Positions 12,490 to 54,729 of a stretch of DNA of 64,000 nt are shown here, piece after piece. The position numbers were made by a program, and so were the translations under genes. Source of the DNA: Gammaproteobacteria bacterium (GTDB lineage Bacteria > Pseudomonadota > Gammaproteobacteria > HK1); contig JAACFO010000007.1 in the NCBI GenBank assembly GCA_009937425.1, positions 1 through 64,000 of the forward strand, in the 5' to 3' direction. The notes beneath the pieces are model-generated. The model did not search any database. It had not been told where the DNA came from and was given only the letters and a program-made list of their open reading frames with translations. Position 1 is the first letter of the stretch, and the number at the start of each line of letters is the position of its first letter.

Positions 12490-12514
12490 GGGGACAGATT
12501 TCAAATCTGTCCCC
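12490..12514. repeat. GGGGACAGATTT inverted repeat (REP-like hairpin)
   Basis: Two 12-base arms (GGGGACAGATTT and its exact complement) are separated by one base. A 12-base string CCCCTAATCAAT then occurs twice, at 12511-12522 and 12525-12536, overlapping the end of thiG. The element sits between the convergent MBL hydrolase and thiG genes. There is no T-run, so it is not a classic terminator, though it may stop or protect transcripts. The GGGGACAGAT core recurs in the large palindrome at 53185-53262. Confidence 0.8.
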
Positions 12515-52974: not shown

Positions 52975-53184
52975 ATGCTGTCGAAAGTACTCATCATCGT
53001 GATTTTTCTCGGAATCATCGGCAGTATGGGTTCCGCACTTTTTTTTCTGATCAAGGACAAGGGGCAGTCGGATCGGACACTCAAGGCGTTGACGGTACGT
53101 ATTGGCGTATCCATCGCGCTGTTCGCGCTACTGTTCGTACTCTGGGGTCTTGGATTGATTAGTCCCCACGGCGTACGCCCCTGA
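52975..53184 (+). CDS. DUF2909 twin-transmembrane protein
   Basis: A 69-residue protein with two membrane segments joined by a short loop FLIKDKGQSDRTLKALTVR, the DUF2909 pattern. Such proteins are encoded in cox clusters and are thought to help assembly, without a proven role. It points opposite to the other cox genes here. Its stop is immediately followed by a 78-bp perfect palindrome. Confidence 0.88.
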   Translation: MLSKVLIIVIFLGIIGSMGSALFFLIKDKGQSDRTLKALTVRIGVSIALFALLFVLWGLGLISPHGVRP

Positions 53185-53262
53185 AGATTAAAAGGGGACA
53201 GATCTATTTTTCTTCCGGACGGAACCGTCCGGAAGAAAAATAGATCTGTCCCCTTTTAATCT
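53185..53262. repeat. 78-bp perfect palindrome (GGGGACAGATCT element)
   Basis: Two 38-base arms, exact reverse complements, flank a two-base centre. Each arm contains AAAAGGGGACAGATCTATTTTTC and then TTCCGGACGG, read inward. It fills all but two bases of the gap between the convergent DUF2909 and cox3 genes. The transcript of either strand would fold into a long hairpin ending in a TTTT run, so it can act as a two-way terminator. The GGGGACAGAT core also occurs at 12490-12514. Confidence 0.95.
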
Positions 53263-53264
53263 GT

Positions 53265-54134
53265 CTACAGCCAGTAGACGAAGATAAACAATCCCAGCCA
53301 CACCACGTCGACGAAGTGCCAATACCAGGCGGCCGCTTCGAAAGCGAAGTGGTGCTTCGGCGTGAAATGCCCTTTCATGGCGCGAATGAGCATTACGGTC
53401 AGCATGATGGCGCCGATAGTGACGTGCAGGCCATGAAAGCCGGTCAACATGAAAAAGGTTGAGCCGTAGGCGCCTGATCCCAGGGTCAGATTGAGTTCGG
53501 CGTAGGCGTGGTGGAACTCGAAACCCTGAACAAACAAAAATGTGATCCCCAGAGCGACGGTGGCAAACAGCCAGCCAATCAGGCCTTTGCGGTTATCGTG
53601 CTTGAGCGCGTGGTGGGCGAGGGTAACGGTGACGCCGCTGGAGAGCAGGATCAGCGTATTCAACGCCGGCAACCCGAACGCGGGAATCGTTTCGAAGGCT
53701 CCACCGACAGCGTTCGGGCCGTTCGTGGGCCACACGGCTTCGAAGCCCGGCCACAGGACGGGACCCGTGGCGATGCCGCCGACGCCTTCGCCCCCCAGCC
53801 ACGGGACGGAAAGAACGCGAATGTAGAACAGGGCGCCGAAGAACGCGGCAAAAAACAGCACCTCGGAGAAAATGAACCAGCCCATGCCCCAGCGGAAGGA
53901 CACGTCCACCTGGTCGTTGTAAGTGCCGCCTTCGCTTTCGCGAATAACCGTTCCGAACCAGCCAAACAGCATGTGCATGACGATGAGGGCGCCGGCGATC
54001 ATGAGCCACTTGCCGGCGCTGGAGCCGTTCAACAGTATTGCGAAACCGCCGAGCAGCGTGAACAAACCGATGGATCCGGTAATTGGCCAACGGCTGGGGC
54101 TCGGAAGGTAATAGGAGTCGTGGGTAGCGGCCAT
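53265..54134 (-). CDS. ctaE: cytochrome c oxidase subunit III
   Basis: Subunit III is a seven-helix membrane protein that stabilises the oxidase. The protein (289 residues from the ATG at 54134) has SRWPITGSIGLF near the N terminus, the SEVLFFAAFFGALFY helix with its conserved Glu, and HFAFEAAAWYWHFVDVVWLGLF at the end. The frame is open to 54257, but the extra part is proline- and arginine-rich and not conserved. Confidence 0.95.
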   Translation of the reverse strand: MAATHDSYYLPSPSRWPITGSIGLFTLLGGFAILLNGSSAGKWLMIAGALIVMHMLFGWFGTVIRESEGGTYNDQVDVSFRWGMGWFIFSEVLFFAAFFGALFYIRVLSVPWLGGEGVGGIATGPVLWPGFEAVWPTNGPNAVGGAFETIPAFGLPALNTLILLSSGVTVTLAHHALKHDNRKGLIGWLFATVALGITFLFVQGFEFHHAYAELNLTLGSGAYGSTFFMLTGFHGLHVTIGAIMLTVMLIRAMKGHFTPKHHFAFEAAAWYWHFVDVVWLGLFIFVYWL

Positions 54135-54183
54135 AGCGGTTACCTGGGGTAAATGGGTGTTGTGAGAGCCGGGGCGAGGGCGA

Positions 54184-54729
54184 TCATGACCGCGCCTCGG
54201 CGTTGAAGAAGGTGTAAGAAAGCGTAATGGTGCGCACGTCCGGGGGCAACCCCGCACCTACCACGAAGCGCAACGGCATCTCGCGACCCTCACCGCCGTC
54301 GAACTGCTGCACCGAGAAGCAAAAGCACTCCGTCTTGGTGAAATAGATGGCGGCCTTGCTCGGGGTGATATTGGGTGTTGCCGTGCCGGTTGTGCCCTTG
54401 CGGGAAAGATTCCGGGCGAAATAAGTAGCGTCGTACACGCGTCCTGGATTGACGCGCATCTCGGTGACCGTTGGCCGCACTTCCCAGGGCAGCGAGCTGT
54501 TCACCGTTCCCAGAAACTGGACGGTGACCAGGCGCTCCGTGTCCTCGCGGCCGCTGAGTCGCGATTCCGCGGCGACGGCGGGTTTACCGCCAAGACCGGT
54601 CAACTCGCACACAGCATCGTAGAGCAGCGGCAGAATCGTATAGCCGAAGCCGAACATGGCGACGACCACGACCATGAGCCGCAGGGATAAGCGGCGGTTG
54701 GCCGATTGCAGGTGGGACGGATCAGTCAC
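54184..54729 (-). CDS. ctaG: cytochrome c oxidase copper chaperone CtaG (Cox11)
   Basis: CtaG delivers copper to the CuB site of subunit I. The 181-residue protein has one N-terminal membrane segment and a periplasmic immunoglobulin-like domain with the copper-binding CFCFSVQQF. The start is a GTG at 54729 that overlaps the stop of a 43-residue ORF (GTGA), so the two should be translated together. Confidence 0.95.
   Translation of the reverse strand: MTDPSHLQSANRRLSLRLMVVVVAMFGFGYTILPLLYDAVCELTGLGGKPAVAAESRLSGREDTERLVTVQFLGTVNSSLPWEVRPTVTEMRVNPGRVYDATYFARNLSRKGTTGTATPNITPSKAAIYFTKTECFCFSVQQFDGGEGREMPLRFVVGAGLPPDVRTITLSYTFFNAEARS

Follow-up and report, generated by a model that had tools for sequence, protein, structure and literature searches.

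The 78-base palindrome at positions 53185 to 53262 of the 64,000-nucleotide stretch analysed here (the window) is very probably a short non-autonomous mobile element of the TIRYT/RAYT-like Y1 (HUH) kind, apparently now stranded, whose arms may be kept perfect by template switching. The palindrome itself is real, exact and far beyond chance. Its two 38-nt arms (53185–53222 and 53225–53262) are 100% complementary and enclose a two-base centre, AA, at 53223–53224, as the initial annotation had described, and in the 64 kb window no other perfect inverted repeat with a short spacer reaches 18 nt. The TGA stop codon of the DUF2909 gene (52975–53184, + strand, domain assigned by Pfam) ends at 53184 and abuts the palindrome, and the stop codon of the convergent cox3 gene (ORF 53265–54257, − strand, COX3 domain by Pfam, likely start near 54134) begins at 53265, two bases beyond it. 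The palindrome thus fills the intergenic gap save two bases, and the annotated occupancy of the whole gap between the two stops was borne out. Folding of the palindrome as RNA gave −65.7 and −66.0 kcal/mol for the two strands, with z of about −13.9 and −13.6, and 0 of 200 shuffles were as good.

The element is composed of two inverted GGGGACAG ends together with complementary inner and outer arms. A 17-nt end, GGGGACAGATCTATTTT, occupies 53194–53210 on the + strand, and a second, inverted copy of it lies at 53237–53253 on the − strand. Between them, the self-complementary and copy-specific inner arms TCTTCCGGACGG and CCGTCCGGAAGA surround the central AA (53211–53236). The left outer arm, AGATTAAAA (53185–53193), is also copy-specific, and the right outer arm, TTTTAATCT (53254–53262), is its complement. 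A second, compact GGGGACAG palindrome (GGGGACAGATTTCAAATCTGTCCCC) is present in the window at 12490–12514, and a GGGGACAGATTTGAAATCTGTCCCC copy was seen on contig C186.

The genome of origin is a draft MAG of 4.87 Mb in 320 contigs (96.5% complete, 5% contamination). A blast search with the palindrome returned many partial matches in it, and a pattern search for the 17-nt end with at most one mismatch gave 14 copies in each orientation, against 0 for the control, the same pattern read backwards. These resolved into 13 palindromic copies, on contigs C13, C35, C50, C137, C141, C184, C199 (the copy in the window), C202, C208, C227, C256, C301 and C303; the matches outside them are solitary ends. 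GGGGACAGATCTATTTT is common to the palindromes and exact in 12 of the 13, with C13 retaining it at one end only, the other being shortened, and C184 being one base off, with AATTT at the end. The inner and outer parts vary among the copies. By simple ORF calls, four of the copies sit in gaps between convergent genes and most of the rest in gaps between tandem genes, a stop codon usually being only a few bases away; these calls gave no clear placement between divergent genes. The copy at C256 9198–9281 ends exactly at the contig end, where a fold-back in the assembly may have produced its outer arm; the arm statistics leave this copy out.

Outside this genome, ends of the GGGGACAG type were found in several genomes to flank, in inverted orientation, a complete Y1 gene of the RAYT type, about 230–250 codons long, and loci with a Y1 transposase gene flanked by such ends comprise L113, L122, L124, L206, L207, L208, L215 and L258. 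An intact RAYT gene lies between GGGGACAGACCTATTTT and GGGGACAGATCTATTTT in L206. In L208, GGGGACAGATCTATTTT stands on both sides of a RAYT whose frame is broken by a stop, and a P. aeruginosa plasmid record contains three 789-bp elements with GGGGACAGATTTATTTTCCC ends. A tree was built from 46 RAYT proteins, labelled by the sequence that follows GGGGACAG in their flanks. The ACCACGG-flanked proteins formed one clade (98/95), and most AT[CT]TATTT-flanked proteins grouped together, apart from the RAYT of the palindrome's own genome. The end label was clustered on the tree, with 7 changes compared to 14.8 in shuffles and a better fit than all 500 of them; since seven changes remain, the correspondence between end type and clade is strong but imperfect rather than one-to-one.

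No intact partner transposase was found in the own genome at its 96.5% completeness. The only intact RAYT there (L008, on C178) has a DnaA_C-like C-terminus and belongs to a clade without GGGGACAG flanks, and it was rejected as the partner on account of its unrelated flanking repeats and its position in another clade of the tree. The different repeat that flanks it, of the TTGACTTATT-GGGGG type, may be a family of its own. A profile search with the AT[CT]TATTT group gave a second, short match of 26 aa on C312, MPRTARIVLLNTPHHVIQKGHDKHAH (E 4.8e-5), which adjoins the degenerate ends CGGGACAGATCTATTTT and CGGGACAGATCGATTT and has its best matches in or beside the AT[CT]TATTT group. From this sequence likeness, we read the C312 relic as the probable remains of the autonomous partner transposase. 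As the sole intact RAYT is not the partner, the palindrome family looks orphaned, and the genome would then be a documented case of elements that have outlived their transposase, now decayed. At the same locus (L039, C312 807–1703) the degenerate ends and the relic adjoin a toxin-antitoxin pair of BrnT/BrnA-like type, recognised by eye, and the brnA stop overlaps another element end.

The 17-nt motif, with at most one mismatch, was absent from the congener and from the 15 family members searched. Of 369 genomes of the class, 29 had looser palindromes of the form GGGGACAG-N20-50-CTGTCCCC, whose extensions are specific to each genome and include ATTTATTT, ACCACGGTTT, ACCCCTTTTT and TATACTTATTT. 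A search for the ATCT form with the same 16-nt arms returned 48 stretches, which come from about 26 genomes of several phyla, the groups including Gammaproteobacteria, Desulfobacterales, Nitrospirae, Acidobacteria, Planctomycetota, Omnitrophota, Pseudomonas and Cupriavidus. The ATTT form gave no match in E. coli genomes; among the plasmids searched it was near-absent, and the ATCT form was found in none. In Chromatiales MAG-239 (L140, L154, L161, L168 and L174), ATCT palindromes lie in or beside REPs of the GTAGGAGCGGCTTCAGCCGC type.

At the syntenic junctions of six copies, C13 (purD-hisH), C35, C141, C184, C202 and C227, the congener (G001) carries neither the element nor a matching palindrome. 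The aligned flanks of the two genomes are about 70–87% identical, a divergence at which the intergenic bases are not alignable and old and new arm bases cannot be polarised. At the window's own junction, cox3 was not found in the congener. The dispersed family, the occurrence of identical ends beside complete transposase genes in other genomes, the tracking of the phylogeny by these ends, the six empty sites and the decayed relic together argue for an element of mobile kind. A mobile origin had been proposed in the initial annotation, with a unique copy, no RAYT gene and nothing similar elsewhere named as the outcome that would speak against it. That outcome did not arise, and the mobile origin is supported by some 13 copies, by ends that flank RAYT-family genes in other genomes, by a relic of the right clade and by the congener sites. 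Of the genome search that it had suggested, the copies were recovered and an intact RAYT exists, but by its flanks and phylogeny this gene is not the partner.

We therefore place the palindrome in a known but little-studied kind of element. Literal motif searches of the literature returned nothing relevant, and the link to TIRYT was reached through RAYT reviews. The terminal inverted repeats of TIRYT/TIRtron elements have GGGGWSAS ends and occur as dimers (Di Nocera et al. 2013, PMC3733652). Both GGGGACAG ends fit GGGGWSAS, ends of this type flank Y1 transposase genes elsewhere, and the 13 palindromic copies form a dispersed repeat family of dimers at moderate copy number. The present family differs in the ATCTATTTT extension of its ends, in the lack of an intact partner transposase among the genes found in its own genome, and in its long, perfect, copy-specific arms, which are not described in the text of PMC3733652 and are the part likely to surprise a specialist. 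The flanking repeats of TIRYT members have the consensus GGGG[AT][CG]A[CG] (Quentin et al. 2018, PMC6006769), which the ends studied here have in common with them; the same work treats TnpAREP subclass 2.1 and other REP-type Y1 proteins. A DnaA_C-like C-terminus is reported for subclass 2.1, and it is lacking in the L206 protein of the AT[CT]TATTT clade and present in the non-partner RAYT of the own genome. REPINs, or REP doublets, are thought to be moved in trans by RAYT (Bertels and Rainey 2011, PMC3116915) and likewise consist of two inverted short repeats that form one long extragenic hairpin. Here, however, neither end forms a REP hairpin by itself, and copies number about a dozen, not hundreds. 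Membership of the GTAG REPs or REPINs was rejected, the GTAG/GTGG tag being absent from the 78-nt element, and a cognate RAYT with flanking REPs was not found in the own genome, where the sole intact RAYT has unrelated flanks. The likeness to RAYT-mobilised repeats that had been annotated thus holds for the RAYT-family link, but the kind is TIRYT/TIRtron and not GTAG REP. The assignment moves an otherwise unexplained palindrome into a poorly studied family that spans many phyla with transposase-specific ends.

In the proposed mechanism, the two GGGGACAGATCTATTTT terminal inverted repeats enclose a few tens of bases, in the way of elements that TIRYT/RAYT-like Y1 single-strand transposases move. 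The family would have spread in the lineage by single-strand excision and insertion while its partner was active, and may have been stranded when the partner decayed. Since then, template switching between the arms of the hairpin during replication would have preserved its perfect pairing and probably extended it in both directions, inward and outward, which would leave arms that differ between copies and are complementary within each.

Such a pattern was observed. Among the own copies, the left and right outer arms pair over 7–21 nt within a copy (n = 12), whereas cross-pairs (n = 132) reach at most 6, and 0 of 100,000 permutations matched this. In a set of 91 copies drawn from many genomes, outer pairing averaged 6.4 within a copy and 1.7 when cross-paired (0 of 2,000 shuffles). 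The outer pairing is in part not specific to a copy, since some outer bases (AAAA/TTTT, AACC/GGTT, TTTC/GAAA) apparently come with the terminal repeat or the target. The inner arms of these 91 copies likewise pair more strongly within than between copies. Longer outer arms go with shorter loops (rho −0.34, p 8e-4), and outer arm length rises with inner arm length. Between C199 and C208, four inner positions differ per arm, and all four are compensated. Two apparently orthologous copies, L137 and L144, differ in a two-base arm extension, with local rearrangement. Perfect stems can arise and persist through template switching (PMC8794818), and for the arms of most copies we favour template switching across the hairpin after insertion, at roughly even odds against the two other mechanisms taken together.

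The first of these has the insertion, or an early event after it, copy the flanking host DNA inverted across the element, the 3′ end of the element hairpin being the primer from which synthesis runs back along the flank of the target. Coding ends fall within the outer arms of C13, C184 and C35; the 21-nt arms of C13 take in the last codons and the stop of both purD and hisH, which are convergent. In Planctomycetota, L141 and L164 have identical interiors with different but perfect outer arms. Complete transposase-bearing elements, in contrast, showed outer matches of only 0–7 nt in a small and partly redundant control set, mostly a short motif that is apparently part of the end or target, so the long arms look tied to the hairpin form and not to insertion. 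Flank copying is a tentative reading, at perhaps one chance in four. The cited literature describes no inverted target duplication for elements of the IS200/IS605 type; such a duplication, if true, would yield long palindromes with perfect arms, the outer ones derived from the host and different at every site.

A little less probable still, and unlikely overall, is insertion into the centre of pre-existing palindromes that supplied the outer arms. Nested cases of this sort do occur, ATCT palindromes being found within ATTT palindromes in L159 and L169 and within GTAG-REP-like doublets in L140 and L154. At the six syntenic congener sites, however, no such palindrome is present, although the intergenic bases there have diverged, and the convergent gene ends at C13 are unlikely to have shared 21 nt, last codons and stop included, beforehand. 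Copies with the same ends and different arms offer a natural data set for weighing template-switch building and upkeep of hairpins against inverted flank copying at insertion.

It is improbable that the palindrome arose in place between the two convergent genes as an ordinary intrinsic terminator acting in both directions. Its position between convergent stops and its symmetry of A-tract, GC stem and T-tract would suit this origin, and in four family members (L180, L183, L186 and L187) the same DUF2909-cox3 gap holds an unrelated hairpin of terminator-like form. An in-place origin does not sit well with an invariant 17-nt end shared by about 13 copies or with identical ends flanking transposases in other phyla, and several copies lie within tandem gene pairs near a start codon, where a strong terminator would be costly. 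The GC-rich stem is present, but the T-run is paired inside it, and the terminator scan did not flag the site. For the mobile element in the window, termination may be a secondary role; it sits at a place where related genomes often carry a terminator-like hairpin, and may act as a two-way terminator. An assembly artefact (fold-back chimera) is scarcely credible: the assembly is a draft MAG and the C256 copy lies at a contig end, but other copies run through with congener synteny on both sides, and identical ends recur in many independent assemblies.

A search of Pseudomonas for empty sites gave no clean one, the homologous left flank breaking inside an apparent IS remnant. The Pseudomonas copies sit in toxin/immunity cassette arrays. 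Cassettes of the toxin/immunity type surround GGGGACAGAT[CT]TATTT palindromes or complete elements in L153 (Pseudomonas cyclaminis) and in L258 (the P. aeruginosa plasmid record), and in L153 a CdiA-like gene is close by.
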